Assembly: GCF_030704305.1 (NCBI RefSeq)
Contig: NZ_CP131935.1
Span: 2,728,001-2,792,000 of the forward strand
Direction: 5' to 3'
DNA: 64,000 nucleotides
Source: Massilia sp. R2A-15
GTDB taxonomy: Bacteria; Pseudomonadota; Gammaproteobacteria; Burkholderiales; Burkholderiaceae_D
The position numbers and the translations under genes were made by a program. Of the stretch, positions 32,691 to 53,623 are shown piece after piece (the stretch's first letter is position 1; every line of letters starts with the position of its first letter). The notes beneath the pieces are model-generated. The model saw nothing but the letters and a program-made list of their open reading frames with translations, was not told the origin of the DNA and did no database searches.

Positions 32691-33560
32691 TCAGACGGTG
32701 CCGGGACGCAGCGGCACGAAGTGGCAGCCTTCCAGCGTTTCACTCATCCATTCAGCCTTGCCGGTGCGGGTAATCAGTTGCAGGTGCTGTACCTGCGCGC
32801 CCACCGGCGCGACCAGCCGGCCGCCGATGGCGAGTTGTTCGAGCAGGGCGCGCGGCACTTCGAGGCCGGCTGCGGCCAATATGATACCGTCGAAAGGGGC
32901 GACCTGCGGCAGGCCAAGCATACCATCTCCGTAGTGCAAGCGCAGGTTAGCGATGCGCAGGGGCCGCAAATTGGCCTTGGCGAGCTCGTGCAGCGGCTTG
33001 ATCCGCTCGATCGAATACACTTCCCGGGCCACGCAGGAGAGCACCGCGGCCTGGTAGCCGCAGCCGGTGCCGATCTCGAGCACGCGCTGCAGCGGCCCGT
33101 CGTTGCGCATCACTTCGATCATGCGCGCCACGATGTAGGGCTGGGAAATGGTCTGGTTGTGGCCGATCGGCAGCGAGGCGTCGATATAGGCCTGGGCCGA
33201 CAGCGCCGGCTCGATGAAGGCGTGGCGCGGTACCGTTTCCAGCGCGCCCAGCACCACCCGGTCCTGCACGCCCTGCTTCGCCACCCGCAGCACCATGGCG
33301 CGGCGGATCGCGTCCGACACCATCAGGTCGGGCCGCGGCGCGGCGGGCGCGGCCGGCTGCGAGCGCTGCAGCGCGTCGCTGTGCGACTTCGACGGCGCCG
33401 CGCTCGCTTTCGGCGCCACGTAGGGCGTATGCACGGCGTTGCGGGTGGCCGTCTGCGGCGTGGCCACGCGCGCCGGCGCGTAGCCTTCGCGCTTGCGGTC
33501 GGCCGCGCCGGTCACCGACGACAGCGGCAAGGGGAAGGTGCTGTTCTTCGGCTCTTTCAT
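32691..33560 (-). CDS. pcm: Protein-L-isoaspartate O-methyltransferase with N-terminal extension
   Basis: About 289 residues, longer than the usual 210. Residues 1-75 are a low-complexity, alanine/proline/serine-rich extension; the enzyme proper starts near [18 protein letters not shown], with the SAM site [16 protein letters not shown] and the RHAFIEPAL segment. It repairs isoaspartyl residues in aged proteins. The start at 33560 overlaps the surE stop in ATGA, so translation is coupled. The extension keeps the frame and looks native, not a mis-called start. Confidence 0.93.
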
Positions 33561-34294
33561 GCCAGCTCCCCGGCCAGCTGGGCCAGCTGGGTCTTGTGGG
33601 TCAGGTCGACCTGCAGCGGCGTGACCGAGACCAGGCCGTTGGCCGTGGCGTGGAAATCGGTGCCCTCGCCGGCATCGCGGGTCGCGCCCGGCGGGCCGAT
33701 CCAGAAGATTTCGCGCCCGCGCGGATCCTGGGCGCGGATCACCGGCTCGGCCTGGTGGCGCCGGCCGAGCCGGGTCGCGGTGACCTTGCCCAGCTGTTCG
33801 TAGGGCAGGCACGGGATGTTCACGTTCAGCAGCCAGGGCGATTGCAGCGCGTCGAAGCGGCGCAGCACGATTTCGCGCGCCACCCGCGCGGCGGCGTCGA
33901 GGTGAGCCCAGCCGTGCTCGGCCTGAGAGAAGGCGATCGCCGGGATGCCGAACAGGAAACCTTCGGTGGCGGCGGCGACGGTGCCGGAATACAGGGTGTC
34001 GTCGCCCATGTTGGGGCCGTTGTTGATGCCCGAGACGATCAGGTCGGGGCGGTAGTCGAGCATGCCGGTGAGGGCCACGTGCACGCAGTCGGTCGGCGTG
34101 CCGTTGACGAAATAGAAACCGTTGGCCGCCTGCGTTACCGACAGGGGGCGGTCGAGCGACAGAGAATTCGAGGCGCCCGAGCGGTTGCTGTCGGGAGCGA
34201 CCACCACGATGTCGGCGACCGGCGCGAGCGCTTCGGCCAGGGCGTTGATACCGGGGGCGAGATAGCCGTCGTCATTGCTGATAAGTATTCTCAT
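33557..34294 (-). CDS. surE: 5'/3'-nucleotidase SurE
   Basis: The 245-residue phosphatase has the metal-binding N-terminus [16 protein letters not shown], the [10 protein letters not shown] motif and [10 protein letters not shown]. SurE dephosphorylates nucleoside monophosphates and is linked to survival in stationary phase. It opens the surE-pcm-nlpD-rpoS unit. Confidence 0.96.
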
Positions 34295-34465: not shown

Positions 34466-36742
34466 TCAGCCGCCCTTCGCTTCCATCAGCGCCCCTTCCA
34501 GCGACGCCACCTCGGCCTCGCCGTACGCGATGCGCGCGTCCTTGTCGCCCTGCATGTCGTACACCTGGCGGATCAGCGCACCTCCGCGCCGCCGCAAGTG
34601 CGGCGCCACGCTGGGCCGCAGCACGATCTTGCCCAGGCTGTCGGCCAGCTCGCGCGCTTCGGCGTCCCGCTGGTTGTCGATCAGGTGCTCGAGCTCCGCG
34701 AGCCTGAGTTCGAGGCTGTCGGGATCGGCGCCGCGCAGCTCGCGAAACGGCTGGCGCATCGCGGCCGGGACCGATTCGGCTTCATGCGGGCCGGCCGACA
34801 GCGCCGCCTGAGGGCGCGGCCCGCCCCCTTGCGCGCAGGCGGGGCCCGATTCGTCCTGCTGTCCCAGGCGCGCAGCAAGGCGCCGCTCGACGCTGGCCGC
34901 CTGCGGCGGCTCGACGCCGAAACGGCGCCGGTAGGAACGCGCCAACGCGGCATCGACTTCCTGCACGCCCTTGACGTCGCACTGGTCGGCCAAAATGTCG
35001 GCCAGCGCTTCGAGCGCCTGCAAGGTGTCGGGATGGTCGGCGCCGGCATGGCGCTCGCGCGCCCTCACCACGCCCTCCTGCAGCTTGCGCCCGTTGGCCA
35101 GGTCGCCCAGGCGCCGCAACACCAGCGCCAGCTGCTGGGTGCAGCGCAGGGTGTCGTCGTGCTCGGCGCCGAGCAGGCGTTCGCGCCCGATCAGCACCCG
35201 TTCGTATTTCATGCGCGCGAGCGTGAGCTTGCCGGCGCGCGCCAGCGTGCCCGCCTGCGCGTCCAGGCTGGCCAGGGTCATCGCGTGGTCCGGGCCGAAG
35301 CGCCGCTCCCAGGCCGCGCCCAGTTCTTCGTGCAGTTCGAGTGCGGCCGCAAAGTCGTTCAGGTCGGCCAGGGTGGCGGCCAGTTCGCCGCGCACCGCCA
35401 GGGTTTCCGGGTGGCCGGCGCCAAGCAGGCGCAGGCAGTCCTGCTCCAGCAGCTCATACAGGAATTTGGCTTCGTGCAGCTTGCCGGTCTGGCGCAGCAA
35501 GCCGGCAAGGCTGGCGCGGCTGGCGCGCGTATCGGCATGGTCGGGGCCTAGCAGGCGTTCGCGCAAGTCCGTGCTCTCCTTGAAGCATTCCTGCGCCTGG
35601 CGCTCCCTGCCCTGCCTGCGATACAGTTCGCCCAGTCGGCGCAGGTCGCCGGCCAGCGGCACCGACACCGCGGTGGAGATGCCGTCGGCCGACAGCGCGC
35701 GCGCGACGCCGACGCGCCCGAGCAGGCCGACTTCGGCGTGCGACTGCCACGGGAAATGGCCGTCGGCCACCCAGTCGAGCAGGGTCTCGAAGGTGCGCGC
35801 CAGCGAAAAGCGGTCGCCTTCGCGTCCGGCGCATTCGGCTAGCGTCTCGCCGCTGGCCATGGCGTTGGTCTGCTGCAGCTGCACTTCGTCCAGATAGCTG
35901 TCGAGCGAGATCCGGCTCACGCCGTAGGCCTCGCGCAGCAGCTTTTCCAGCGCGCGCTGATAGCCGCCGCCCTTGACGGCATCGCCGCGGCGCCATTGCA
36001 GGCGGCGCTCGCAGTCGGCGCTGTCGATCGAGCATGGCACCGGGTAGACCAGCAGCGGGCGCTGTTCGTCCTCGTGGCTGCAACGGTATTCGATGGCGCG
36101 ATTGACCACGCCGCACATGCCTTCCAGGCTGCGCTGGTTCGGCGTGAACAGGGCCACCAGCTTGCGCGGCAACAGCGTGGTGCAGATGCTGACGGCGGCC
36201 GAACGCCCGCTGCGCGCGTCAACCATGACGTGGCGGAAGCGCCGCGCCATATGCTCGCCAAAGCAGCGGAACAGGGCCGGGCAGGCGGCGAACAGGCCGT
36301 CCCAGTCCATCGCGCCGGCGCGCTCGCCGTAGCTGCCGTCGAAGCGGCCGGCGCGCATCAGGTACAGCGGGCGGCTCTGGTCGACCCGCGCGACGAACGG
36401 CTCCCAGTCGACCGCTTCGAGCACGGCGCGGGCCAGGCGCTCGTCGTCGCGGGCGCACTCGGCCTGGCTGCGCACCAGCATCTCGAGGTGCTCCTTCAGC
36501 GCCGCGAAATATTCGAGCAGGCCGGGACCGTCGCCGCCGGCGCCGAAGGCATGGTGCAGGCCGGGCGACTCGGTGTCCCAGTCGATCATCAGTACCGGCA
36601 CGGTGGCGTTGTTGCCCCCGGCCAGCAGCACGGCCATGTTTGCCAGCGCGCTGCTGCGCGCCGTTCCGCTCTCGAATGAATAGAACGTGGTCACGTCGCC
36701 GGGAGCGGGTATCGGCGGCAATGTAATGCGGTTGATTTCCAT
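34466..36742 (-). CDS. ParA/MinD-like NTPase (KGGVGR-variant) fused to TPR repeats, P-loop degenerate
   Basis: The 758-residue protein opens with a SIMIBI/MinD-like domain. The family pattern FYSFKGGVGRS reads here FYSFESGTARS (residues 20-30): the signature lysine, two glycine-type positions and the P-loop lysine are replaced. Other family motifs remain: MIDWDTESPGL (52-62) and HVMVDARSGRSAAV with LVALFTPNQRSLEG. From about residue 390, five kinesin-light-chain-type TPRs carry GxxHxxT caps (GPDHADT, GAGHPET, GPDHAMT, GAEHDDT, GADHPDT). AGGAG precedes the ATG, ten bases after the TIR gene, so the two are one operon. Related NTPase-TPR proteins pair with TIR-like proteins in conflict systems; function here is unknown. 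Confidence 0.85.
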   Translation of the reverse strand: MEINRITLPPIPAPGDVTTFYSFESGTARSSALANMAVLLAGGNNATVPVLMIDWDTESPGLHHAFGAGGDGPGLLEYFAALKEHLEMLVRSQAECARDDERLARAVLEAVDWEPFVARVDQSRPLYLMRAGRFDGSYGERAGAMDWDGLFAACPALFRCFGEHMARRFRHVMVDARSGRSAAVSICTTLLPRKLVALFTPNQRSLEGMCGVVNRAIEYRCSHEDEQRPLLVYPVPCSIDSADCERRLQWRRGDAVKGGGYQRALEKLLREAYGVSRISLDSYLDEVQLQQTNAMASGETLAECAGREGDRFSLARTFETLLDWVADGHFPWQSHAEVGLLGRVGVARALSADGISTAVSVPLAGDLRRLGELYRRQGRERQAQECFKESTDLRERLLGPDHADTRASRASLAGLLRQTGKLHEAKFLYELLEQDCLRLLGAGHPETLAVRGELAATLADLNDFAAALELHEELGAAWERRFGPDHAMTLASLDAQAGTLARAGKLTLARMKYERVLIGRERLLGAEHDDTLRCTQQLALVLRRLGDLANGRKLQEGVVRARERHAGADHPDTLQALEALADILADQCDVKGVQEVDAALARSYRRRFGVEPPQAASVERRLAARLGQQDESGPACAQGGGPRPQAALSAGPHEAESVPAAMRQPFRELRGADPDSLELRLAELEHLIDNQRDAEARELADSLGKIVLRPSVAPHLRRRGGALIRQVYDMQGDKDARIAYGEAEVASLEGALMEAKGG

Positions 36743-36752
36743 AAGACTCCTT

Positions 36753-37361
36753 TTATTTTTTTGGGAACGAGACTTCCGGCGGGTCGCGCCATTCTGGTGG
36801 GACAGCGGGAAGCACGAATTGGTTGCAATCGTGTCCGGAGAGCGTGCACTTTTTTAGAATCTGGTAGTGCTGCACGATGCGATCGACGATCTTCGCGATA
36901 TCGGGGAGAAAATCCAGGTTCGCTTTCAGGTCCGGCGTGGCCATCGTGAAACGCGAGAAGTCCACGTACATGCCGGACTCGGTGATCTGCGCGGGCAGTC
37001 CGTCCGGGTGGCGCGTCATCACCACCGGGATGATCAGGTGGCCAGGCAGGTCGTAGTGGCGGCGCCGCTCCTCTTCGAGCTTTTGCATGGCGGCGTATTC
37101 GCGGCGGGTGTAGGCATGGGCCTCATACTTCGGCGTGTAGATCATGATCATCGCCACGCTCTCGCACATGGCGCGGGCGATCTTGCGGTCGATGTCGTCG
37201 CCGCCGCCAAGCTGCTCGTGGTCGACGAACAGTTCGTCCTCGCGGTCGAAGTGCGGCTCGAGATAGCAGCGCAGCGCATCGGCCAGCGAGGTCTTGAAGC
37301 GGGTCATCAGGTCGTATTTGCCTTGGGCGTAACTGAAGAAACAGCCGTAGCGAATTGCCAT
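36753..37361 (-). CDS. TIR-like domain protein, partner of the NTPase-TPR protein
   Basis: About 202 residues. YGCFFSYAQGKYD (residues 5-17) is the TIR betaA/box 1; ELFVDHEQLGGGDDIDRKI (43-61) fits the BB-loop region; ESVAMIMIYTPKYEAHAYTRREYAAM (67-92) fits strand D and the helix with a glutamate (Glu88) where NADase TIRs keep their catalytic glutamate. The C-terminal hundred residues have no clear family. The start at 37361 has an excellent GGGGAGGT site five bases upstream; the longer frame lacks TIR-like sequence. It is first in a two-gene operon. NAD cleavage or signalling is inferred, not shown. Confidence 0.8.
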   Translation of the reverse strand: MAIRYGCFFSYAQGKYDLMTRFKTSLADALRCYLEPHFDREDELFVDHEQLGGGDDIDRKIARAMCESVAMIMIYTPKYEAHAYTRREYAAMQKLEEERRRHYDLPGHLIIPVVMTRHPDGLPAQITESGMYVDFSRFTMATPDLKANLDFLPDIAKIVDRIVQHYQILKKCTLSGHDCNQFVLPAVPPEWRDPPEVSFPKK

Positions 37362-37513
37362 ATCGACCTCCCCGTGAACAAACAGCCAACTGCGCACCAA
37401 GGACTGTAACAAGCTCATCCATTGCCACCTTGCGTCGGCGCAAATGGCCCGGAGCGGGCATAATGAAAAATCAAACGATCGTACTTTTTCAAACATCACA
37501 AGCGGAGACGGCA

Positions 37514-38488
37514 ATGAAAGCGGTGGTATGCAAAGCGTGGGGCCTGCCCGACACACTGGAAGTGCAGGAGTTGCCCGACCTGGCGCCGGGACCGGGCCAG
37601 GTGGCGATCGACGTGAAAGCGGCCGGGGTGAATTTCCCCGACGTGCTGATCATCCAGGGCAAGTACCAGGTGAAGCCTCCTTTGCCGTTCACGCCTGGCA
37701 ATGAGCTGGCCGGCGTGGTGCGCGCGGTCGGCGACGGTGTCGCGCACGTCAAGGTGGGCGACAAGGTGATCGCCTTCACCCAGCTGGGCGCCTTCGCCGA
37801 ACAGGTGGTGGCGCCGGCGCAGGCCGTGATGCCGATGCCGCCGGGGATGGATTTCGACACGGCGGCGGCGATCACCCTCACCTACGGCACCTCGCATCAC
37901 GCGGTGGTGGACCGGGCCGCGCTGAAGGCCGGCGAGACCATGCTGGTGCTGGGCGCGGCCGGCGGGGTCGGACTGGCGGCGATCGAGATCGGCAAGGCGC
38001 TGGGCGCGCGCGTGATCGCGGCCGCGTCGAGCGAGGACAAGCTGGCGGTGTGCCGCGCGCACGGGGCCGACGCCACCATCAATTACAGTGCGGGCGACCT
38101 GCGCGAGGCGATCAAGGAAGCCACCGGCGGCAAGGGGCCGGACGTGATCTACGATCCAGTCGGCGGCGCGTACGCGGAGCCGGCGTTCCGCTCGATCGCC
38201 TGGCGCGGGCGCTACCTGGTGGTGGGGTTCGCCAACGGCGAGATTCCGAAGCTGCCGTTCAACCTGATGCTGCTGAAAGGCGCCTCGGTGGTGGGGGTGT
38301 TCTGGGGCGACTTCGTGCGCAAGGAGCCGAAGGCGAACCTGGCGGCGATGCACCAGCTGCTAGGGTGGCTGGGCGAAGGCAAGATCCGGCCGCTCATTTC
38401 GAAGCGTTATCCGCTGGCCGATACGCACCTCGCGCTCGAGGACATGGCGGCGCGCAAGGTGACGGGGAAAGTGGTGATCGTGCCGTAA
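37514..38488 (+). CDS. NADPH:quinone oxidoreductase-family (zinc-less MDR) protein
   Basis: The 324-residue medium-chain dehydrogenase/reductase starts MKAVVCKAWGLPDTLEV. It has GVNFPDVLIIQGKYQVKPPLPFTPGNELAG and a Rossmann motif LVLGAAGGVGLAAIEIGKALGA at about residues 143-164. It lacks the zinc ligands of alcohol dehydrogenases, as usual for quinone oxidoreductases. GGAGACGGC precedes the ATG. It is divergent from the TIR gene across a 152-base gap; the two are probably unrelated in function. A composite repeat follows the stop. Confidence 0.9.
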   Translation: MKAVVCKAWGLPDTLEVQELPDLAPGPGQVAIDVKAAGVNFPDVLIIQGKYQVKPPLPFTPGNELAGVVRAVGDGVAHVKVGDKVIAFTQLGAFAEQVVAPAQAVMPMPPGMDFDTAAAITLTYGTSHHAVVDRAALKAGETMLVLGAAGGVGLAAIEIGKALGARVIAAASSEDKLAVCRAHGADATINYSAGDLREAIKEATGGKGPDVIYDPVGGAYAEPAFRSIAWRGRYLVVGFANGEIPKLPFNLMLLKGASVVGVFWGDFVRKEPKANLAAMHQLLGWLGEGKIRPLISKRYPLADTHLALEDMAARKVTGKVVIVP

Positions 38489-38539: not shown

Positions 38540-39391
38540 TTATTTTTTGGGCAGGAAGGCCGTGCCGAGCACGCCGTTGTCGAAGCCGGTCGCGGCATCG
38601 CCGGTCGAGGCGTAGCGGTACAGCACGGCTGAATAGATGCCGGTCAGCGCGCTGTGAAACAGCAGGGTCGCCAGCACGGCAAAAACCGTCAGCACGATCA
38701 TCAGCAGCGCCAGCACGGGCAGCTTGAATACGGCGATGAAGACGGCAATCGCGATACCGCCCGCGGCGATCAGCCCCAATTGGATGATGCTGAACGCGAT
38801 TCCCAGCCCGGCCTGGCCGGCGACGTTCTCGCCCCAGGTGCGCTTGAACATGCCGGCGCTCTCCTTGACCGAGGCGATCGCGCCGGCGTCGCGCGCGACC
38901 AGCACCGGCACTACGAGGAAGGTGGCGAGGGTCCAGCCGGCGCCAACCAGGGCGGTGATCCAGCGGCCGAGGAAGCCGACCCGCTCCTCGATTGCGCGCA
39001 GGATCATGCCGACCGTGGCGGCGATGACCGCGTAGCCGAGGATGGCGCCGAAACGCGAATTGGCGATCCGCAGGCCATCCTTCACGGTCGGGGCGCCGCC
39101 GTCGAGGCGCATCAGCACGCAGCCGACCAGCGCGGCGTTGCAGTAGAAGATGACGAAATACTGGACCACGTAGAACAGGAAGGCGGCCGAATACAGCACC
39201 GGGGTGACGTCAGATTCGCTGCGGATGCCGTCGAACGCGCCCATGCCGAACAGCGGCAGCGCGAAACAGGCCAGGACCATCACGAGCGCAACGCCGGATA
39301 TCAGCGGGAAAACCAGCAAATGGCGGTCGGCCTTGAGCACCGTGGCGCTGGCCTTGAGCAAATCGAAACTGCGGGTGATGCGGTTGAACAT
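38540..39391 (-). CDS. DUF6159-family integral membrane protein
   Basis: The 283-residue protein starts MFNRITRSFDLLKASATVLKADRHLLVFPL, the usual opening of DUF6159 proteins, and has about six hydrophobic spans. The motif GAIASVKESAGMFKRTWGENV in the middle is also typical. No biochemical role is established. ATG follows CAGGAGCC. It is a single gene between repeat copies. Confidence 0.82.
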   Translation of the reverse strand: MFNRITRSFDLLKASATVLKADRHLLVFPLISGVALVMVLACFALPLFGMGAFDGIRSESDVTPVLYSAAFLFYVVQYFVIFYCNAALVGCVLMRLDGGAPTVKDGLRIANSRFGAILGYAVIAATVGMILRAIEERVGFLGRWITALVGAGWTLATFLVVPVLVARDAGAIASVKESAGMFKRTWGENVAGQAGLGIAFSIIQLGLIAAGGIAIAVFIAVFKLPVLALLMIVLTVFAVLATLLFHSALTGIYSAVLYRYASTGDAATGFDNGVLGTAFLPKK

Positions 39392-39493
39392 GGTGGCTCC
39401 TGTCCGGATCGATGGGGCCGCAAGTTGCCTTGCGGAACAGCCTGGACAGTATCACAAGATTGACGAATTGGCACCTTGATTTGGGGCAGAGAT

Positions 39494-39518
39494 GGGGGGG
39501 TCGGCACGACCAGCCCCC
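39494..39518. repeat. Short palindromic repeat near the dinG end
   Basis: GGGGGGGTCGG and the partner CGACCAGCCCCC form a shortened variant of the type A repeat, eight bases past the helicase stop on the minus strand. Confidence 0.6.
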
Positions 39519-39525
39519 ATTCGAA

Positions 39526-41550
39526 TTACTGCGGCGGCTTGAAGAAGTCGATGACGTCCTTCTGCACCCGGGTGCGCTTGAACGGCGGCAGGCTTTGCCA
39601 CACGCGCTTGCCGTACGACTTGGAGATGAGCCGCGGATCGCAGATCATCAGCACGCCGCGGTCGGTCTCGTCGCGGATCAGGCGCCCTGCCCCCTGCTTG
39701 AGGTTGATGATCGCCTCCGGCAGGGTGTGGTGCATGAAGCCGTTCATGCCCTGCTTTTCCATCACGTCGATGCGCGCGGCCAGCACCGGATCGTCCGGCG
39801 GCGCGAACGGCAGCTTGTCGATGATCACCAGGGACAGCGCCTCGCCGCGCACGTCGACGCCCTCCCAGAAGCTCTGGCTGCCCACCAGCACGGCGTTGCC
39901 GGCGTTGCGGAACGAGTCGAGCAGCTCGGTGCGCCCGCGCTCGCCCTGCACGAACAGCGGGTACTCGAGGCCGCGGTCGGCGAATTCCTTGCGCAATCGC
40001 TCGGCCACATGCTTGACCGCGCGAATCGTGGTGCACAGGAAGAAGGTGCGCCCGCCGGCCGCCTCGATCACCGGCAGCGCGCAGTCGATAACCGCGTCGG
40101 TGTAGCCCATCGCGTTCGGATCGGGCAGCCCGGTCGGCACATACAGGATGCCCTGCTGCTCGTAGTTGAAGGGACTCGGCCAGGTCTGCGCCGCCTCCCC
40201 CGCCAGGCCCATCTGGTCGGTGAAATGCTTGAAGTCGTTCTTCACCGCCAGCGTGGCCGAGGTGAAGATCCAGCTGCGCGGCGTGCCTTCGCGCTGGTTG
40301 TTGAAGATGGGCGCGATCGACAGCGGCGTCTTGTGCAGCTGCAGCGACGAGGCGAACGCTTCGACCCACAGCACGGCGTCGTCGCCCTCGACCATCTTGC
40401 CCTTGCCATCGGGCTTCCAGCCGTCCAGCGCCTGGCCCAATTCGACCGCGCGCACCCGGCACTGCTCGATGGTTTCGGCGCGCGCCGACTGGTCTTCCAG
40501 CACCTCGATCATCTCGGCCAGCTTTTCCTTGACCGTCTCGAGCGCCGGGAAGAATGGCGAGGACGCCGCGATCTGCGCCAGCGACATGCGCACGATGTCC
40601 TGCGGGAAGGTCAGGCGCAGGTCGCGGGCGGCCTTTTCGACCGCGGTGACGACCTTGGCCCAGTCCGGCCCCCCGCGCGCGTGCGCGAGGCCCTCGGCCA
40701 GCACGTCGCGGCACAGCTCGAGGATCTGCGAGGTCGACACGGTCTGGCCGAAGAACAGCGTGGCGGTGTCGGGCAGCTGGTGCGCCTCGTCGAAGATGAT
40801 GGTGTTGGCCGACGGCAGCAGCTCGGCCACGCCGGTGTCTTTCAGCGCCACGTCGGCGAAGAACAGGTGGTGGTTGACCACCACCACGTCGGCCTGCTGG
40901 GCCTCGCGGCGCGCCTTCATGACGAAGCAGTCCTGGTAATACTGGCACTCGGCGCCGACGCAGTTTTCGCGGGTCGACGTCACCAGGTTCCAGATGGTGG
41001 CGTTCTCGGGCACCTTGGACAGCTCGGCCTTGTCGCCCGAACTGGTCATCTTGATGAAGCGCGAGATCTCGCGCAGGTGGCCGACGTCGTCGCGCGAGGT
41101 CATGCGGCCGTTCTGCATGGTGCGCTCGAGGTTGTAGTGGCAGACGTAGTTCGAGCGGCCCTTGAGCAGTGCGATCGAGACCGGCGCGCGCAAGGCGGCG
41201 CGCACGGTCGGGATGTCGCGCAGGAACAACTGGTCCTGCAGGTTCTTGGTGCCGGTCGAGACGATGGTCTTGCCGCCCCACATCAGCGCCGGCACCAGGT
41301 AGGCGAAGGTCTTGCCCGTGCCGGTGCCCGCCTCGGCGATGAGGGTCTTCTGGTCGGCGATGGCCTGGGCAATCGCCTTGGCCATCTCGGTCTGCGAGCG
41401 GCGCGGGGAAAAACTGCCGACCGCGGGCGCGAGCGGGCCGCCGGCACTGAACAGGCGGTCGATCTCGGCGTCGAATTTGCCGACCGGCTGGGAGCCCTGA
41501 TCAGCGGCGCCGGGAAGCTGTTCGCCGGGCGCCTGGTTGGAATCGGTCAA
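39526..41550 (-). CDS. DinG/YoaA-type ATP-dependent DNA helicase
   Basis: The 674-residue XPD-like helicase has Walker A EAGTGTGKTFAYL (residues ~93-105), DEAH in IIFDEAHQL, motif V/VI near the end (VLVGSQSFWEGVDVRG; QGAGRLIRDETDRGVLMICDPR) and four cysteines of an iron-sulphur cluster in YVCHYNL, ENCVGAEC and DCFVMK. It unwinds 5'-3' and acts on R-loops or damaged forks. The start called here is a TTG at 41550 with no clear ribosome site, so a later start is possible. DUF465 lies 28 bases upstream. Confidence 0.93.
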   Translation of the reverse strand: MTDSNQAPGEQLPGAADQGSQPVGKFDAEIDRLFSAGGPLAPAVGSFSPRRSQTEMAKAIAQAIADQKTLIAEAGTGTGKTFAYLVPALMWGGKTIVSTGTKNLQDQLFLRDIPTVRAALRAPVSIALLKGRSNYVCHYNLERTMQNGRMTSRDDVGHLREISRFIKMTSSGDKAELSKVPENATIWNLVTSTRENCVGAECQYYQDCFVMKARREAQQADVVVVNHHLFFADVALKDTGVAELLPSANTIIFDEAHQLPDTATLFFGQTVSTSQILELCRDVLAEGLAHARGGPDWAKVVTAVEKAARDLRLTFPQDIVRMSLAQIAASSPFFPALETVKEKLAEMIEVLEDQSARAETIEQCRVRAVELGQALDGWKPDGKGKMVEGDDAVLWVEAFASSLQLHKTPLSIAPIFNNQREGTPRSWIFTSATLAVKNDFKHFTDQMGLAGEAAQTWPSPFNYEQQGILYVPTGLPDPNAMGYTDAVIDCALPVIEAAGGRTFFLCTTIRAVKHVAERLRKEFADRGLEYPLFVQGERGRTELLDSFRNAGNAVLVGSQSFWEGVDVRGEALSLVIIDKLPFAPPDDPVLAARIDVMEKQGMNGFMHHTLPEAIINLKQGAGRLIRDETDRGVLMICDPRLISKSYGKRVWQSLPPFKRTRVQKDVIDFFKPPQ

Positions 41551-41578
41551 AATGGAGTGTCAGTGAAGCGAAGACGGA

Positions 41579-41779
41579 TCAGGCCGGAACATCCGGCACC
41601 AATTGCATTTTCAACAGGGTGATATGGTCTTTCAGCTGCAGCTTGCGCTTTTTCAGGCGCCGCAGCTGCAACTGGTCGTGGTGGCCATCGAGCACCAGCA
41701 TATCTATGACCGCATCGAGGTCGCGATGTTCCACGTCGAGTTCGACGAGGCGGCGCTGGATTTCCTGGACATCTGGCAT
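41579..41779 (-). CDS. DUF465 (YdcH-like) small protein
   Basis: The 66-residue, all-helical protein MPDVQEIQRRLVELDVEHRDLDAVIDML... with LQLRRLKKRKLQLKDHITLLKMQL belongs to DUF465, short coiled-coil proteins of unknown role that are common in proteobacteria. It begins the short minus-strand pair with the helicase gene. Confidence 0.88.
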   Translation of the reverse strand: MPDVQEIQRRLVELDVEHRDLDAVIDMLVLDGHHDQLQLRRLKKRKLQLKDHITLLKMQLVPDVPA

Positions 41780-41930
41780 AGTGTGTTGTTCTCTACAGAT
41801 TTTTACAATTCCCTTTCGAGAGAAAGCGTGGAAACGCCTACAATCGAGCGCAGTAATTAGTTACCGCTTGCAACATTCGGTGGAATCAGTGCATAGTTTA
41901 ATCTACCCAGACGTTGCCGCCAACATAGAT

Positions 41931-42737
41931 ATGAATTCATACAAGATCGAAGCCGGAACAGCGCAACATATTGGAAACCGGCCGCAGCAGAACGACCGGG
42001 CCGCCGTATTTTCCGGCTCTCGCGCGCCGGGCTACATGCTGGCGGTGCTGGCCGACGGCGTGACCGGCGGCGCGGCCGCCTCCGAGCAGGTGCTGCACAC
42101 GGCCAAGCTGCTGTTCGACGAATTCAAGCCGGGCGACGCCCCCAGCGTGGAACGCCTGTCCGGCCTGCTGCGCGAGATCGTCCACGAGACCCACCTGGTG
42201 ATCAAGCTCAACGCCGTGGCCACCGGGACCGAGCAGCATTGCACGTTTGCCGCGCTGATCGTCACGCCGGCCGGCCAGGCGGTGTGGGCGCATGTCGGCG
42301 ATTCGCGCGTGTACCGCTTCCAGAAGGCCGAGTGCAAGATGCGCACCGGCGACGCCGGCTACATCGACTACCTGATGGAAACGGACCGGCTGCCGGCCGA
42401 GGCGGCGCGCAACCATCGCCATTCCAAGCTGCTGGTCAACGTGCTGGGCAACAGCCGCAAGGAGCCCTTCGTGGCGATCGGTAGCCATGAGGCGCTGAAG
42501 GCGGGCGATATCTTCCTGCTGTGCACCGACGGCCTGTGGCATTTCTTCACCGACGCCGAACTGGGCGCGGTGCTGGCGAAAAATTCGCCGCGGCAGGCGT
42601 CCGAGATGCTGATCAACAAGGCGGGCGAACGGGCCCAGGGCAAGGGCGGCAACTGCACGATGGCGATCGTCAAGCTGGTCGCGCCGCCGAAAGAGGCGCC
42701 TAACTACAAGGTGCAGAAGATGGGCCGCGCGGTCTGA
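41931..42737 (+). CDS. PP2C-family serine/threonine phosphatase
   Basis: About 268 residues. PP2C metal-binding motifs are HIGNRPQQNDRAAVF (residues 14-28), VLADGVTGG (~39-47), AHVGDSRVYRF (~121) and LCTDGLWHFF (~200). It removes phosphate from Ser/Thr proteins. No partner kinase or FHA protein is nearby. The start is uncertain: ATG 41931 has a weak ribosome site, while a GTG at 41889 follows GGTGGAATCA and would add 14 residues. A type A repeat follows the stop. Confidence 0.88.
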   Translation: MNSYKIEAGTAQHIGNRPQQNDRAAVFSGSRAPGYMLAVLADGVTGGAAASEQVLHTAKLLFDEFKPGDAPSVERLSGLLREIVHETHLVIKLNAVATGTEQHCTFAALIVTPAGQAVWAHVGDSRVYRFQKAECKMRTGDAGYIDYLMETDRLPAEAARNHRHSKLLVNVLGNSRKEPFVAIGSHEALKAGDIFLLCTDGLWHFFTDAELGAVLAKNSPRQASEMLINKAGERAQGKGGNCTMAIVKLVAPPKEAPNYKVQKMGRAV

Positions 42738-42741
42738 TGTT

Positions 42742-42768
42742 GGGGTCAGGTCCGCCGGACCTGACCCC
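42742..42768. repeat. Type A palindromic repeat, full-length and perfect-armed
   Basis: GGGGTCAGGTCCG (arm one) and CGGACCTGACCCC (arm two) share a single C centre. It begins five bases after the phosphatase stop. Confidence 0.8.
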
Positions 42769-42824
42769 GCAGTTGAAGCTGCCGCCAGCACATTCGCGTC
42801 ATCGTTTTCGACCGCGACAAAACC

Positions 42825-42863
42825 GGGACTAGGCGTCCCCGTCGCTCCGCCGGACCTGACCCC
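42825..42863. repeat. Composite palindromic repeat near the lipoprotein gene end
   Basis: GGGACTAGGCGTCCCC, then GTCGCTCCGCCGGACC and TGACCCC. It sits eight bases past the lipoprotein stop, with another copy some 60 bases away between convergent genes. Confidence 0.75.
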
Positions 42864-42870
42864 ATGTTCG

Positions 42871-43497
42871 TTACTTCGCCTCCGCAGCTTTCTCTTTCTC
42901 TTTTTCCTGCTTCTTCTCTTCAACCTTGCGCTGGCGCCGTTCCGACTCCGCCTTGCGCTTCTCGTAGGCTTCCACATTGGCCGCGCGCTTCGCGGCGCCC
43001 GCCCGCTCCTCGGCCTCGATCCGCTTCACCTTCGCCGTGTGTTCGGCGGCGCGGTCCACCTTCGCCGGCGGCCTGGGCGGCGCATCGGGCGGCGGCTGGT
43101 ACGGCGGCGCCGGCGGCTGGGCCGCTATCCTGGCCTCCTGTTCCTTGAACTCCTGCTCCGCCTTCGCCATCGCCTTGTCGCGTTCATCGACCCTGGCCTG
43201 GCGCTGGTAGCGTTCGGCCTCGTTCTCGATCGCGTGCAGCGCGGCGAGCGCGGTGCGGCGCTTCTCGCGCGCCTTGTCGAGGCAGTTATTGACTAGGAAT
43301 TTGGTATAGCACTGCTGCTCGCTGACGGCAAATTCGGCTTCGGCTCTCGCGCGCTCGCGCGCGGCCAGCGCCAGCTTACCCTGGGCTTCGGCCACCGAAT
43401 GGCTGGGCGGCGCCAACGGCGGCGGCGGCGAAGGCTTGACCGACGCGCAGCCGGCCAGCGCCAGCAGCACCATCAACAATGAAATCTGCCTGGTCAT
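42871..43497 (-). CDS. Coiled-coil lipoprotein, function unknown
   Basis: About 208 residues with a lipoprotein signal (LLMVLLALAGCAS, Cys 17). A long helical region rich in Ala, Glu, Arg and Lys follows (AQGKLALAARERARAEAEFAVSEQQ and on) with two central cysteines (QQCY, NNCL), then a proline-rich segment and a highly charged C-terminal coiled coil ending EKEKEKAAEAK. It resembles envelope proteins of the TolA/Lpp type only in composition. GGGGGAAG precedes the ATG. It lies 16 bases after zapE and may be co-transcribed with it. Confidence 0.75.
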   Translation of the reverse strand: MTRQISLLMVLLALAGCASVKPSPPPPLAPPSHSVAEAQGKLALAARERARAEAEFAVSEQQCYTKFLVNNCLDKAREKRRTALAALHAIENEAERYQRQARVDERDKAMAKAEQEFKEQEARIAAQPPAPPYQPPPDAPPRPPAKVDRAAEHTAKVKRIEAEERAGAAKRAANVEAYEKRKAESERRQRKVEEKKQEKEKEKAAEAK

Positions 43498-43513
43498 CGT
43501 AGTCTTCCCCCTG

Positions 43514-44611
43514 TTATGCAATCGCGTCGGCCGCGTCGCGCCGCGCCGACTCCATGTATTCGCGCGACTGCATTTCAATGATACGCGAGACGGTGCGGTG
43601 AAACTCGTTCGCCAGCATGCCTTCGGTGTACAGGTCCTCGGGCTCGACCTCGGCCGACATCAGCAGCTTGACCTTGTGGTCGTAGAACACGTCCACCAGC
43701 CAGGTGAAGCGGCGCGCCTCGGACGACTGGCCGGCCGACATCGCCGGGATCGACGACAGGATCACGGTGTGGAAGCGGCTGGCGATTTCTAGGTAGTCGT
43801 TCTGCGAGCGCGGACCGCCGCACAGGGTGGCGAAGTCGAACCAGATGATGCCGCCGGCCCGGCGCAAGGCGCGGATCTCGCGCTGCTCGATATGCACGCG
43901 CGGGTCTTCGTCGGCCGTCTCGGCGATCTTGGCGTAGGCCGTGCGCAGCGCCTGGTCGGCCGCGGCGCCGAGCGGCGTGTAATACGAATCGACCTGCTCG
44001 AGCGCGCGCTTGCGGTAGTCCACGCCGGCGTCCACGTTCATCACGTCGAGCTTTTCCTTGAGCAGCGCGATGGTCGGCAGCATGCGGTCGCGGTGCAGCC
44101 CGTCCGGGTACAGCAGGTCCGGGTCGTAGTTCGACGTCATGATGAAGGAGACGCCGTTGTCGAACAGGGCTTTGAGCAGGTTATACAGGATCATCGCGTC
44201 GGCGATGTCGGAGACGTGGAATTCGTCGAAGCAGATCAGGCGGTACTTCTTGGCGATGCGGCGCGCGACTTCGTCGAGCGGATCTGCCACGCCCTTGAGC
44301 TCATCGAGCTGGCGGTGCACGCCGCGCATGAATTCGTGGAAGTGCAGGCGCGTCTTGCGCACCACCGGCACCACCGAGTAAAAGCTGTCCATCAAAAACG
44401 ACTTGCCGCGCCCCACCCCGCCCCACAGGTAGACGCCGCGCGGGACGTCCGGCCGGTTGATCAGGCGCTTGAAGCTGGACGAGCGGCGGCCCTTGTACTC
44501 GACCCATTCGTCGTAGGCGCGCTGAAGCCGGTCCACCGCGCGCTGCTGCGCCTCGTCGGACTTGTAGCCGCGCTGGGCCAGCGAATGTTGGTAAAACTCT
44601 TGGACGTTCAT
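43514..44611 (-). CDS. zapE: Cell division protein ZapE (AFG1-like ATPase)
   Basis: The 365-residue ATPase has Walker A LWGGVGRGKSFLMD (residues ~62-75), Walker B LICFDEFHVSD and the sensor stretch SFIMTSNYDPDLLYPDGLHRDR. ZapE associates with the Z-ring during late constriction and is the bacterial member of the AFG1 family. It follows lpdA after a terminator; this position is common in betaproteobacteria. Confidence 0.95.
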   Translation of the reverse strand: MNVQEFYQHSLAQRGYKSDEAQQRAVDRLQRAYDEWVEYKGRRSSSFKRLINRPDVPRGVYLWGGVGRGKSFLMDSFYSVVPVVRKTRLHFHEFMRGVHRQLDELKGVADPLDEVARRIAKKYRLICFDEFHVSDIADAMILYNLLKALFDNGVSFIMTSNYDPDLLYPDGLHRDRMLPTIALLKEKLDVMNVDAGVDYRKRALEQVDSYYTPLGAAADQALRTAYAKIAETADEDPRVHIEQREIRALRRAGGIIWFDFATLCGGPRSQNDYLEIASRFHTVILSSIPAMSAGQSSEARRFTWLVDVFYDHKVKLLMSAEVEPEDLYTEGMLANEFHRTVSRIIEMQSREYMESARRDAADAIA

Positions 44612-44624
44612 GGATCTGCGGTAT

Positions 44625-44658
44625 AAAACAAAACGGGCCGGCTTGTGGCCGGCCCGCT
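44625..44658 (-). terminator. Rho-independent terminator of the OGDH operon
   Basis: On the minus strand GCGGGCCGGCC, loop ACAA, then GCCGGCCCGTTTTGTTTT. It lies 14 bases after the lpdA stop and ends before zapE, whose start overlaps the downstream side. Confidence 0.85.
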
Positions 44659-44671
44659 GAGGGAACTACAA

Positions 44672-46099
<1,428 letters not shown>

Positions 46100-46117
46100 T
46101 GTTTGATATTCCTAGTT

Positions 46118-46447
46118 TTATTCTTCGGGGACGAAAATCCACAGCAGCAGGTAGATCAAGAGGCCAAAGCCGAAGGTGACGGTAAACAGCACGAACACCA
46201 GGCGCCAGATCCACGACTCCATGCCGGACGCCTTGGCGAGGCCGCCACAGACGCCACCGAGCCAGCGGTCGGTGCGCGAGCGGCGCAATGCGCCAATCTC
46301 GCTGGCGAAGTCGCTGCCGGGCGCCGTCTTGTTCAGGTCCACGCCGGCGCCAAGCACCTTGGCCTTGGCCTGCTCATACTCGGCATCAGACAGCGCGCCG
46401 GCCTGGTGCAGTTCGTGCAAACGCTTGATTTCATCGGAGACACTCAT
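46118..46447 (-). CDS. SHOCT-PspC membrane protein inside the OGDH operon
   Basis: About 109 residues: an N-terminal SHOCT helix hairpin (DEIKRLHELHQAGALSDAEYEQAKAKVL, residues 4-31) and a C-terminal PspC domain (RSRTDRWLGGVCGGLAKASGMESWIWRLVF) with a membrane span ending LLIYLLLWIFVPEE. PspC domains belong to envelope-stress switches, but PspC itself is longer and there is no psp gene nearby. GAGGTGGTCGTA precedes ATG 46447. It lies 62 bases after sucB and 18 bases before lpdA. Confidence 0.88.
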   Translation of the reverse strand: MSVSDEIKRLHELHQAGALSDAEYEQAKAKVLGAGVDLNKTAPGSDFASEIGALRRSRTDRWLGGVCGGLAKASGMESWIWRLVFVLFTVTFGFGLLIYLLLWIFVPEE

Positions 46448-46509
46448 TACGACCACCTCTCAAAAACATGGTTGGCACGCGCTGCGGGCAGCGCGCTAAG
46501 GACGACCGG

Positions 46510-47763
46510 TTACAGGTCCAGCAGCAGGCGCGATGGATCTTCCAGCGTTTCCTTCATCGTGACCAGGCCCAGGACGGCTTCGCGGCCGTCGATGATGCGG
46601 TGGTCGTACGACATCGCCAGGTAGTTCATCGGACGCACCACGATCTGGCCGTTTTCGACGACGGCGCGGTCCTTGGTCGCGTGCACGCCCAGGATGGCCG
46701 ACTGCGGCGGGTTGATGATCGGGGTCGACAGCATCGAGCCGAAGGTGCCGCCGTTCGAGATCGAGAAGGTGCCGCCGGTCAGGTCGTCCAGGGTCAGCTT
46801 GCCTTCCTTGGCCTTGGCGCCGAATTCACCGATCTTCTTTTCGATGTCGGCGATCGACATCTGGTCGGCATTGCGCAGGATAGGCACCACCAGGCCGCGC
46901 GGCGAACCGACCGCGATACCGATGTCGAAGTAGCCGTGGTAGACGATGTCGTTGCCATCGACCGAAGCGTTGATGATCGGGTACTTCTTCAACGCGGCGA
47001 CGGCGGCCTTGACGAAGAAGGACATGAAGCCCAGCTTGACGCCGTGCTCTTTCTCGAACTTGTCCTTGTACTTGTTGCGCAGGTCGATCACCGGCTGCAT
47101 GTTCACTTCATTGAACGTGGTCAGGATCGCGTTGGTCGACTGCGACTGCACCAGGCGCTCGGCGATGCGGGCGCGCAGGCGGCTCATCGGCACGCGCTCT
47201 TCCGGACGGTCGCCCAGGCTGGCGATGGCCGGTGCGGCGACCTGCTGCAGCGCAGGCTTCGATGCCACGACGGTCAGCGGCGTCGGAGCGGCAGGCTTGA
47301 CGCCGGCGGCGACGGCGCTGAGCGCATCGCCCTTGGTGACGCGGCCGTCCTTGCCGGTGCCGGTGACCTGGCTGGTCGTCATGGAAGCTTCCGACAGGAT
47401 CTTGGCGGCGGCCGGCATGGCGATGTCGCCTTTCGACGCTGGCGATGGGGAATCGACGGCAGGCGCCGGCGCGTTCGGGGTGGCGACAGCCTTTACTTCC
47501 AGCGGGCTCACTTGCGCCGACGCTTCGGTGTCGATGATGGCGATGACTTCGCCAGCGACCACGGTGCTGCCGTCGCCCTTGATGATCTGGACGATGGTGC
47601 CCGCTGCCGGCGCCGGCAGTTCAAGGACCACTTTGTCGGTCTCGATGTCGATCAGGTTTTCGTCGCGCGCGACTGGCTCGCCGACTTTCTTGTGCCATGA
47701 AAGCATGGTCGCTTCGGCTACCGACTCCGACAGTTGTGGGACCTTGACTTCGATTTGTGCCAT
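46510..47763 (-). CDS. sucB: Dihydrolipoyllysine succinyltransferase (E2 of OGDH)
   Basis: The 417-residue E2 has a lipoyl domain with the lipoylated lysine in ETDKVVLEL (residues ~42-50), an Ala/Pro-rich linker, a peripheral subunit-binding domain (GRVTKGDAL) and a catalytic domain with [14 protein letters not shown]. It transfers succinyl to CoA in the TCA cycle. CGGAG precedes the ATG. A stable hairpin lies in the 59-base gap after sucA. Confidence 0.96.
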
Positions 47764-47793
47764 GAAAAAACTCCGTATTCTGTTTTGGGTGCT

Positions 47794-47816
47794 GCGCCCC
47801 GCTCGTGACGGGGCGC
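47794..47816 (-). other. Intercistronic hairpin between sucA and sucB
   Basis: GCGCCCCG and CGGGGCGC form an eight-base stem with a seven-base loop. No T run follows, so it is more likely a processing or stability element than a terminator; it could adjust E1:E2 expression. Confidence 0.5.
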
Positions 47817-47822
47817 GCCGTT

Positions 47823-50678
47823 TTATTTAGTGAGGATGAAGCCCTTGAGCTTGGAGAACGCGGTCTCCAGCAACTCCTTCTGCTGCGCGTAGTGCTTGTC
47901 GTAGTAACCGACCGCAGGCGAAGCCGAAGCCGGACGGCCCGCGTACGCGAGGCGCTGACCCGATTCCAGGCTTTCGAAGATGTTGTGCTGGATCTGGAAC
48001 CACGGACCCTGGTTCTGCGGCTCATCCTGCGCCCATACCAGCTCGGTGAAGTTCGGGAACTTCTTCAGTTCGGCCGCGAACGACTTGTGCGGGAACGGAT
48101 ACAGCTGCTCGACGCGGATGATGGCCACGTCGGAGGCGCCGCGCGTCTTGCGCTGCGCGACCAGGTCGTAATAGACCTTGCCCGAGCAGGCGATGACGCG
48201 CTTGACCTTCTTGCCGTCGATCTTCTCGTCCACTTCGCCGATCACGGTCTGGAACGCGCCCTTGGCGAGATCCGACAGCGGCGAGCCGGCGTCCTTGTTA
48301 CGCAGCAGCGACTTCGGCGTCATGATGACGAGCGGCTTGCGGAACTGGCGCACCATCTGGCGGCGCAGCAGGTGGAAGATCTGCGACGCGGAGGTCGGCT
48401 GCACCACTTGCATGTTGTTGTCGGCGCACAGCTGCAGGAAGCGCTCGAGGCGTGCCGACGAGTGCTCCGGGCCCTGGCCTTCGTAACCGTGCGGCAGCAT
48501 CATCACCAGGCCCGATGCGCGGCCCCACTTCACTTCGCCAGAGCTGATGAACTGGTCGATCACGACTTGCGCGCCGTTGGCGAAGTCGCCGAACTGCGCT
48601 TCCCAGATCGTCAGCGTGTTCGGTTCGGCGGTCGAATAGCCGTACTCGAATGCGAGTACCGCTTCTTCCGACAGCACCGAGTCGATGACGGTGAACGGCG
48701 CCTGGGTGTCGGACACGTTGCACAGCGGGACGTAGGTGCCCGCATCCCAGCGCTCGCGGTTCTGGTCGTGCAGCACGGCGTGGCGGTGCACGAAGGTGCC
48801 GCGGCCGGCGTCCTGGCCGGTCAGGCGCACGGCGTAGCCGGACGACACCAGCGAGGCGTAGGCCAGGTGCTCGCCCATGCCCCAGTCCAGGTTCATGTCG
48901 CCTCGGCCCATCGAGGCGCGGTCGGCCAGCACTTTTTCAACCAGCGAGTGGGCCTTGAACTGCTCCGGCACCACGGTGATGCGCGAAGCGAGGCGCTTCA
49001 GTTCCGTCATCGGCACGGCGGTGTCGGCGCTGTCGGTCCACTTCTTGTTCAGGAACGGCAGCCAGTCGACCGCGTACTTGTTCTTGAAGTTGGAGATGAC
49101 CGGATCGACGGTGTGCTTGCCGGCGTCCATCGCGTCGCGGAACGTAGAGACCATCTTGTCGCCGCCATCGGCCGGAATCACGCCCTGGGCGATCAGCTTG
49201 TCCGCGTACAGCTTGCGGGTGCCTGGATGCTGGCCGATTTTCTTGTACATCAGCGGCTGGGTCAGCGCAGGCGTGTCCTGCTCGTTGTGGCCCAGTTTGC
49301 GGTAGCTGATGATGTCGAGGACGATGTCCTTCTGGAACTGCATGCGGTAGTCGAGCGCGATCTGGGTCGCCAGCACGACCGCTTCCGGATCGTCGCTATT
49401 GATGTGCAGGACCGGCGCTTCGATCATCTTCACGACGTCCGAGCAGTACAGGGTCGAGCGCGCGTCGCGCGGGTCCGACGTGGTGAAGCCGATCTGGTTG
49501 TTGATCACGATGTGCACCGTGCCGCCCGTGCCGTAGCCGCGGGTCTGCGCGAGGTTCAGCGTTTCCATGACCACGCCCTGGCCGGCGAATGCGGCGTCGC
49601 CGTGCACCAGGATCGGCAGCACTTGCGCGCCGTCCTTGTCGCCGCGGCGGTCCATGCGCGCCTTGACCGAGCCTTCGACGACCGGGTTGACGATCTCGAG
49701 GTGCGACGGGTTGAACGCCAGCGACAGGTGGACCGGGCCGCCCGCGGTAGCGATGTCGCTCGAGAAGCCCTGGTGGTACTTGACGTCGCCCGACGGCAGT
49801 TCGTCGCCGTGCTTGCCTTCGAATTCTTCGAACAGGTCGGCCGGGGACTTGCCCAGGGTGTTGACCAGCACGTTCAGGCGGCCGCGGTGGGCCATGCCGA
49901 TGACGATCTCCTGCACGCCTTTTTCGCCGGCGCGCTGGATGGTCTCGTCGATCGAGGCGATGAACGACTCCGAGCCTTCGAGCGAGAAGCGCTTCTGGCC
50001 GACGTAGCGGGTGTGGAGGTAGCGCTCCAGGCCTTCGGCGGCCGTCAGGCGGTCGAGGATGTGGATTTTTTTCTCGGCCGGGAACGAAGGGGTCGAGCGG
50101 ATCGATTCGAGCTTCTCTTGCAACCAGCGCTTTTCGGCCGGGTCGCTGATGTACATGAATTCGGCGCCGATCGAGCGGCAGTAGGTATCGCGCAGGAAGT
50201 TGATCAGGTCGCGCAGCGACGCCGTCTCCTGGCCGAAGTAGGTATTGCTGATGTTGAACTGGGTGTCCATGTCAGCATCGGTGAAGCCGTAGAACGCCGG
50301 TTCCAGTTCAGGAATCGTCGGGCGCTCCTGGCGCTGCAGCGGGTCCAGGTTGGCCCACTGCGAACCGAGGTTGCGGTAGGTGGCGATCAGCTGGGTGACG
50401 GAGACGTTCTTGCGTCCCATGTCGGCGTCGGCGGCGGCGTGCACCACGCGGATCGGGCCCTGCTTCGCGCGCTCGGCAAACGAGGCGATCACGGATGCAT
50501 GGACGACGTCGGGTTTATTGGATCCATCGACCGCAGGCACGTTCTGCATGGAGTCGAAGTAGGCACGCCAATTGTCTGGCACCGAGCCAGGATTGTCGAG
50601 ATAGGCCTCGTATAACTCTTCTACGTATGGCGCATTGCCACCGAACAGATACGAGTTCGCTGTCTGTTGTTGCATCAT
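47823..50678 (-). CDS. sucA: 2-oxoglutarate dehydrogenase E1
   Basis: About 951 residues. Thiamine diphosphate binding is seen in [16 protein letters not shown] and the NNQIGFTT end of the motif; [13 protein letters not shown] and the C-terminal [11 protein letters not shown] segment are E1o hallmarks, and the N-terminus [13 protein letters not shown] fits the E2-binding start. ATG 50678 is chosen because AAGG lies eight bases before it; a GTG three codons upstream abuts that site. It heads the sucA-sucB-(PspC)-lpdA operon. Confidence 0.96.
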
Positions 50679-50834
50679 CTTGCTCACCTTTCGTTCGCGC
50701 TTCGCGAAATTGGCGGGTTAATCTAACCTTCCGCGACACGGCCTGACCGGTTAGCGGATCGCACATCAAGTTGTGGGGGAAGGACTGTAAAGCTTCGGAC
50801 TAAGCTGACTGCTCATCAGAATATAGCACGCGTT

Positions 50835-50862
50835 ATTATAAAGCAGCAGCCGATTGCGTGAA
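50835..50862 (-). promoter_or_regulatory. Putative sigma-70 promoter of sucA
   Basis: On the minus strand TTCACG, sixteen bases, TATAAT. The -10 is perfect. It lies about 155 bases before the sucA start, leaving a long leader; a second TATATT-like -10 follows closely. Confidence 0.55.
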
Positions 50863-50953
50863 AAAGAATGACCGGTTCTGCCGCGAAAAAATGCTGCGGA
50901 CGCCACGCTGTTGCCATTACACTCATGTTTTTCATGGTCGGAGAATTAACATT

Positions 50954-53094: not shown

Positions 53095-53100
53095 ATTGGC

Positions 53101-53188
53101 GTCGTACCTGCGCAGGCAGGTACCCATACTGAGCGCGCAGAACTCTACAGCCTTTTCAGCATGGGTTCCTGCCTTCGCAGGAACGACG
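53101..53188. repeat. REP/BIME-like element, copy 2
   Basis: GTCGTACCTGCGCAGG, a partner CAGGTACCCATACTGAG, a twenty-odd-base spacer, then the inverted half with CAGCATGGGTTCCTGCC and TTCGCAGGAACGAC. It fills much of the gap between the regulator and the proline-rich secreted protein. Confidence 0.75.
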
Positions 53189-53257
53189 ACGTGCGGCTCC
53201 ACAATCTCTCCACAATCGGGCGGCACACTGCTGTCATACCAAGCCCAAGGAGACATC

Positions 53258-53584: not shown

Positions 53585-53592
53585 AGAGAAAT

Positions 53593-53618
53593 GGGGTCCG
53601 GTCGCGGGACGAGACCCC
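53593..53618. repeat. Diverged type A palindromic repeat
   Basis: GGGGTCCGGTCGCGGGACG then AGACCCC, with mismatched arms, lies between the convergent secreted-protein gene and barrel gene; it follows the former by nine bases. Confidence 0.6.
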
Positions 53619-53623
53619 GAACG

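Follow-up and report, generated by a model that had tools for sequence, protein, structure and literature searches.

A two-gene TIR and MinD-like/TPR operon at a fixed chromosomal site in Massilia and its relatives, with a predicted CRP/FNR-type promoter element

Why does a TIR protein, followed directly by a MinD-like protein with TPRs, sit among housekeeping genes at one fixed place of a bacterial chromosome? The pair is encoded on the minus strand of a 64,000-nucleotide stretch of the Massilia sp. R2A-15 genome (contig NZ_CP131935.1; this whole stretch is hereafter the window), and the original prediction had taken it for a two-gene operon and a candidate conflict or signalling system. To our knowledge, bacterial TIR proteins have been studied mostly in scattered defence systems and effectors. 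Here, we find that the pair forms an operon core to its clade, inherited vertically at a single locus with housekeeping genes around it. The best explanation, to which we give a probability of roughly 45%, is a chromosomally fixed TIR signalling operon that is activated by a CRP/FNR-family regulator and whose TIR protein is gated by its MinD-TPR or pseudo-MinD-TPR partner. Our results point to a resident, regulated TIR module more than to a mobile defence cassette, with an output that could be physiological or immune.

Both open reading frames (ORFs) lie where they had been predicted, with 10 bases between the TIR gene and the downstream gene of 758 codons:

36753..37361, minus strand: TIR-domain protein, 202 residues; ATG start preceded by GGGGAGGT (ORF and TIR_2 match).
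34466..36742, minus strand: partner protein, 758 residues; ATG start preceded by AAGGAG; MinD/KGGVGR-related domain (about residues 1-340) and kinesin-type TPRs.

The TIR protein matches TIR_2 (PF13676) at 38.3 bits, above the gathering score of 28. An AlphaFold model from an alignment of 50 rows, including six distant TIR segments, has a mean predicted local distance difference test score (pLDDT) of 86.6 and the fold of solved TIR domains; an earlier one, built on 16 close sequences, scored poorly (pLDDT 58.6) and was discarded. The glutamate that had been proposed for the catalytic position is E88 of a TRRE motif. All 254 aligned orthologues share it, along with S10, Y11 and the loop residues G54-D55, and it falls on the conserved glutamate of the five TIR chains listed in the comparison, which come from three different proteins. 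Profile and structure both uphold the TIR assignment, and the invariant residues suggest that the protein is catalytic.

A sample of 392 genomes from the family holds orthologues of the TIR protein in 163, spread over 5 of 44 genera. An order-level sample of 300 genomes gave five, four from the same family (our own genome included) and the fifth a weak match. Presence in five Oxalobacteraceae genera is 5/5, 36/40, 17/17, 57/62 and 74/74, together 189/198, a total that includes a few partial genes. The clade with the pair consists of Massilia and Telluria (groups g1, g11 and g18), Duganella, Pseudoduganella and Rugamonas (g40) and Janthinobacterium (g5). Genus names follow these groups with single exceptions, for example a Massilia in g40 (L308) and Herbaspirillum sp. 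SJZ107 in g18 (L276); the latter carries the pair, and its name may be out of date. There is one TIR locus per genome in the clade. The co-occurrence that was to be checked exceeds chance, with both genes adjacent in 134 of 135 fetched orthologous loci; in a second set of 80 records chosen for the TIR, the partner is present in 79 and the remaining record is cut by the contig end.

The gene order is dinG, (DUF6159), (qor, divergent), TIR, partner, surE, pcm, nlpD, rpoS, rlmD as far as each contig reaches, and all of the 14 gene orders listed, which stand for 132 of the 135 fetched loci, fit it. In the window the immediate neighbours are:

33557..34294, minus strand: surE, same-strand downstream neighbour, followed by pcm, nlpD, rpoS and rlmD; by synteny it marks the fixed locus.
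37514..38488, plus strand: qor-like zinc-type dehydrogenase, divergent upstream neighbour (Pfam; gene order in relatives and outgroups).

Partner and surE share a strand in 128/128 placeable loci, at a median gap of 94 bp. The gap is wider than 400 bp in eight of them (L099, L109, L112, L114, L120, L126, L130 and L155) and reaches 3.8 kb, through early frame ends or inserted DNA. Window neighbours with Pfam matches are mostly of housekeeping type. Beyond dinG lies a PP2C-type phosphatase gene with a GTG start (41619-42737), found in the same place in many fetched loci. Nine TIR-less genomes of other genera lack the pair at surE; three have qor and surE starts 104-110 bp apart, and in another three the stretch fetched holds no dinG or qor match. 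This adjacency of qor and surE is the ancestral empty site. Relatives of the TIR protein were absent from 50,697 phage records, 72,556 plasmid records and viral contigs. Distribution, synteny and the lack of phage, plasmid or viral matches rule out a typical mobile conflict cassette here, and a typical conflict or defence-island setting finds no support for a pair with a fixed locus, 189/198 retention and housekeeping flanks. The original prediction was right that no radical-SAM, protease or kinase gene stands among the neighbours identified. It had also said that a core gene with a known housekeeping role would count against it; the pair is indeed core within the clade, and we found no known role for it.

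Upstream of the TIR gene lies an element that is shared by most loci:

37430..37443, minus strand: 14-bp inverted repeat TTGCG-N4-CGCAA, a predicted binding site for a CRP/FNR-type activator, 69-82 nt upstream of the TIR start.
37403..37408, minus strand: -10-like hexamer TACAGT, 35 nt after the palindrome start (anchored promoter comparison; coordinates computed).

TTGCG-N4-CGCAA has a single exact match in the window, and at least one match was seen in 18 of 100 shuffles. In 113 of 134 loci the slightly relaxed form TTG[CT]G-N4-C[AG]CAA lies at most 200 bp from the TIR start, and the 1,482,487 bp of those loci contain no further occurrence; TTG-N8-CAA is found in 130 of 134, where the rest of the loci predicts 0.044 per 200 bp. 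Loci that lack a qor match have the palindrome as well, as does L211, and among 15 empty-site loci one has a site of this type, 5.5 kb from surE. After removal of TIRs more than 90% alike, TTG-N8-CAA remains in the expected stretch of 48 of 51 promoters. When these 48 were compared, anchored on the TTG and CAA ends, the unanchored inner positions held 1.42 bits (G of TTGyG) and 1.85 bits (C of CrCAA), against 0.16 in the upstream flank, which gauges the drift of neutral positions since common descent; a TAGAGT/TACAGT hexamer at fixed distance held 1.4-1.7 bits at five of six positions against the same 0.16. In class-II promoters, CRP/FNR activators bind with the middle of their site about 41.5 bp upstream of where transcription begins, and the palindrome centre is computed to fall at about -40.5 to -41 if transcription is assumed to start 7 nt after the hexamer, which would be near position 37396 of the window. 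An NnrR-type site, in which a 14-bp palindrome of the NnrR consensus is followed at constant distance by a -10-like element, is thus present; in the part of the source available, that consensus is ctTTGcgnnnncgCAAag, from alphaproteobacteria (PMC1274295). A terminator scan gave one terminator-like match, with 2.3 expected by chance. From operator and -10-like element we infer that the TIR promoter is under a CRP/FNR-family activator.

The partner protein departs from the original prediction in one respect. Its five kinesin-type TPRs are confirmed, with TPR_12 matching five stretches and kinesin light chain as the best solved relatives of this part, but it is not a KGGVGR-type NTPase by motif or by score: the P-loop reads ESGTARS, the signature lysine is lost, and AAA_KGGVGR (NF047398) is matched at 73.9 bits, below the cut-off of 90.

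36653..36673, minus strand: degenerate P-loop codons for residues 24-30, E-S-G-T-A-R-S where the family has K-G-G-x-G-R-[ST]; coordinates derived from the ORF.

Four KGGxGR-bearing orthologues score 119-123 bits against the same model and one relative with an acidic P-loop 70.8. The KGGxGR family as such already has an arginine at the position of MinD's P-loop lysine. In a census of 134 fetched partners and the window protein, in which the motifs of 12 loci with an upstream-extending frame (one in g11, 10 in g18, one in g40) were read individually and not by regular expression, the signature lysine is replaced by glutamate or aspartate in 75/75 copies of g1, g11 and g18, the Massilia/Telluria side. 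It is kept in 22/22 Janthinobacterium copies (g5), and the 38 copies of g40 have lysine in 32, glutamine in three and arginine in three. A midpoint-rooted tree of TIR and SurE proteins (128 rows) joins g1, g11 and g18 in one group of 69 (support 0.93) and places g5 and g40 in a separate group of 59 (support 0.99). Because g1, g11 and g18 group together, the switch to an acidic residue would fit a single event, and KGGxGR, drawn from the wider family, was presumably the ancestral state of the domain. Partner length varies through the TPR part, from about 350 to more than 900 residues; of the frames that have a stop and whose motif was recognised, 6/42 in g18 (the L109 stop included), 4/36 in g40 and 0/40 in g1, g11 and g5 have at most 430. 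Four Massilia/Telluria copies (L112, L133, L136 and L135) carry low-complexity insertions of RPDVARPDV or QFQSPQFQ type within the MinD-like domain, after a DWD motif.

The ratio of non-synonymous to synonymous substitution rates (dN/dS) was taken from disjoint pairs of moderately related genomes, which for the partner replaced values from overlapping pairs (0.41 on the acidic and 0.108 on the lysine side). On the acidic-P-loop side (28 pairs) the medians are 0.079 for TIR, 0.252 for the partner domain and 0.092 for SurE; on the KGGxGR side (22 pairs) they are 0.074, 0.112 and 0.085. The TIR protein is constrained to the level of SurE on both sides, and the partner is relaxed where the P-loop is acidic.

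A link to quorum sensing comes from Janthinobacterium. In the part of PMC5080296 available to us, a 2016 RNA-seq table of strain HH01 gives Jab_2c19720, a 'TIR domain containing protein', a log-fold change of -2.29 in the JAI-1 synthase mutant, and the gene is placed in the core genome of all strains except J. sp. Marseille and credited with a JAI-1 motif in its promoter. As this core-genome class fits a clade-core TIR, Jab_2c19720 is probably the gene studied here. When 350 bp upstream were searched in 135 loci, the strict JAI-1 motif, TTGAN6/7TCAA, occurred in six, which rules it out as a general TIR promoter element; in g40 it stands 166-168 nt before the TIR gene in 3 of 38 loci.

Put together, the operon could work as follows. 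A CRP/FNR-family activator would turn on the TIR promoter upon a physiological cue, which could be low oxygen, nitric oxide or some related metabolic signal, and quorum sensing probably also contributes in at least one strain. The TIR protein, judged from its fold and the invariant glutamate at the catalytic position, would cleave or cyclise nicotinamide adenine dinucleotide (NAD+). Operon and domain make-up would make the MinD-like/TPR protein its regulatory partner: the TPRs would bind a ligand that varies, and the MinD-like domain, of KGGxGR descent, would hold or release the TIR protein. On the Massilia/Telluria side, where the signature lysine is gone, this domain may act as a pseudo-NTPase scaffold. 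We suggest tentatively that a TIR enzyme serves the whole clade as a resident module of physiological signalling, which a CRP/FNR-type regulator (and quorum sensing in some strains) would switch on. A MinD-derived protein, on the Massilia/Telluria side a P-loop-less sensor, would gate it, so that TIR/NAD+ chemistry would serve regulation and not phage defence.

Several points weigh against a regulated TIR signalling operon. TIR folds also act as pure scaffolds. The palindrome is common to the loci by descent, and its TTG and CAA ends owe their 2.0 bits in the comparison of 48 promoters to having been the anchor. A consensus promoter scan, which requires a -35 box, gave no promoter-like match here. 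In 400 kb of our own genome there is one further TTGCG-N4-CGCAA site and none in an evident promoter; the extra site (L394:7368-7381) overlaps a poorly defined 180-residue ORF. The pair can also be lost: seven of nine TIR-less clade genomes were inspected, and six have surE adjoining dinG or qor without the pair, the seventh being at a contig edge and the remaining two genomes incomplete (88% and 82%). These six are true clean losses, so the pair is dispensable. In L234 a TPR remnant of the partner persists between surE and qor after loss of the pair. L211, of the Janthinobacterium group, has kept the TIR gene (6489-7091) and the promoter palindrome, and its partner is absent. The identity of the HH01 gene is argued from core-genome class, not from sequence. 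In what we have of PMC5080296, the quantitative reverse-transcription PCR column for Jab_2c19720 is empty, HH102 has no TIR gene among its quorum-regulated genes, and violacein aside no common homologues are regulated in both strains; given HH102, the quorum link is not general.

Could the pair be an immune device that has become fixed? A TPR protein that senses an invader and frees the TIR protein to deplete NAD+, in the manner of abortive infection, would be a domesticated sensor-effector, fixed in the clade and not island-mobile. A conserved effector with a faster-changing partner of variable TPR length is what an arms-race sensor would look like, and TIR, MinD/ParA-like and TPR parts recur in published conflict systems (PMC7159879, in the portion available). 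Three unrelated KGGVGR ATPase genes elsewhere (L356, L367 and L379) also follow ORFs that are AbiV-type HEPN-like, MqsA-antitoxin-like and HEPN; of these Pfam matches, that of L379 (HEPN) is above its cut-off and the other two are below theirs, and the three are possibly other two-gene conflict systems. Retention in 189/198 genomes at one locus and in one copy, the failure to find mobile carriers, the merely partial PADLOC matches and a palindrome that is that of a physiological regulator speak against such a device, which we consider somewhat unlikely.

Quite unlikely is a non-enzymatic TIR adaptor that, at the cell pole or close to the envelope, forms a localisation or signalling scaffold with the MinD-TPR protein. 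A scaffolding role is common among TIR domains, and MinD-like proteins position complexes, yet the invariance of E88, S10, Y11 and G54-D55 suggests catalysis. The tight two-gene operon would also suit a toxin-antitoxin-like pair in which the TPR protein neutralises a toxic TIR; L211, with an open TIR frame and palindrome and no partner found, L109, whose partner has an early stop beside an intact TIR (an assembly error is possible), and the lack of carriers among phage, plasmid and viral-contig records make it very improbable. A relic in decay, of which P-loop loss would be the mark, is hardly credible when the TIR dN/dS is about 0.08 and SurE-like on both sides, the partner domain is still at about 0.25 and the palindrome is kept, for all that the partner is relaxed, its TPR part short in several species and the pair cleanly deleted in six genomes, with the TPR remnant of L234.

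A single-copy clade-core TIR with a conserved promoter element would be well suited to exploring the part that TIR/NAD+ chemistry plays in normal physiology. KGGxGR and acidic pseudo-P-loop partners, beside a TIR that is equally constrained on both sides, amount to a natural evolutionary experiment: because the P-loop differs while the constraint on TIR is equal, a comparison of natural partners can show how nucleotide binding bears on TIR control.

How does the pair relate to known systems? Among the papers listed in our searches of open-licence literature we found no treatment of it besides PMC5080296 and the general survey PMC7159879, and no report of a clade-core two-gene form, of P-loop loss with TIR kept or of an NnrR-type promoter element. 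PADLOC models gave no full-length match (partner, PDC-M28B at 28.5 bits over residues 17-65; TIR, PDC-S66 at 14.5 bits), and Thoeris type III ThcB4 scores 17.5 bits against a cut-off of 220. Around 30 loci with FxsC-like TIR matches, a regular expression found no intact KGGxGR in flanks of about 1.5 kb; two of the 30 are this very pair, whose degenerate motif it misses. Among 30 loci with high-scoring KGGVGR domains the motif was found in 16, of which 14 have an ORF ending at most about 400 bp upstream. Of seven ORFs compared with Pfam (four of those 14 and three others), 0 matched TIR; a TIR/KGGVGR pair may exist elsewhere.

The likeness to the FxSxx-COOH proteins that had been pointed out is real: there too a TIR-like protein goes with an NTPase-TPR protein, and the matches to the FxsC N-terminal model (NF040588; 40.1 bits, cut-off 130) and to FxSxx-TPR (NF040586; 112.3 bits, cut-off 300) are significant. 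Membership is rejected, as both lie far under their cut-offs. The ten window ORFs at 38540-55542 show no FxSxx precursor, radical-SAM or peptidase domain, and the flanks consist of dinG/qor/surE/pcm/nlpD/rpoS; the search did not extend to short peptides, to window 1-29 kb or to the remaining genome. Unlike the FxSxx-COOH system, the pair is proteobacterial, has a fixed locus and its own conserved promoter element, and in the window its P-loop is degenerate. With the KGGVGR-variant AAA ATPase (NF047398) the window protein shares the domain, with an acidic residue for the signature lysine. The palindrome equals the consensus of the NnrR regulon, of the CRP/FNR family, whose known sites precede denitrification genes in alphaproteobacteria, whereas the site predicted here precedes a TIR operon in betaproteobacteria. 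The present TIR stands alone with a MinD-like/TPR partner, is clade-core and is known from sequence, which sets it apart from bacterial TIR NAD+ hydrolases and the short-Argonaute TIR (SPARTA). As a kind, the combination is already in print: in the portion of PMC7159879 available, MinD/ParA-like domains predicted to be inactive occur alongside TIR and TPR parts in vWA-MoxR/VMAP and peptide-processing conflict systems, as they do here, and its main text, to that extent, does not name Massilia, Duganella or Janthinobacterium. Those systems are multi-gene and, by the survey's account, preponderant in multicellular prokaryotes, whereas the present one consists of two genes.

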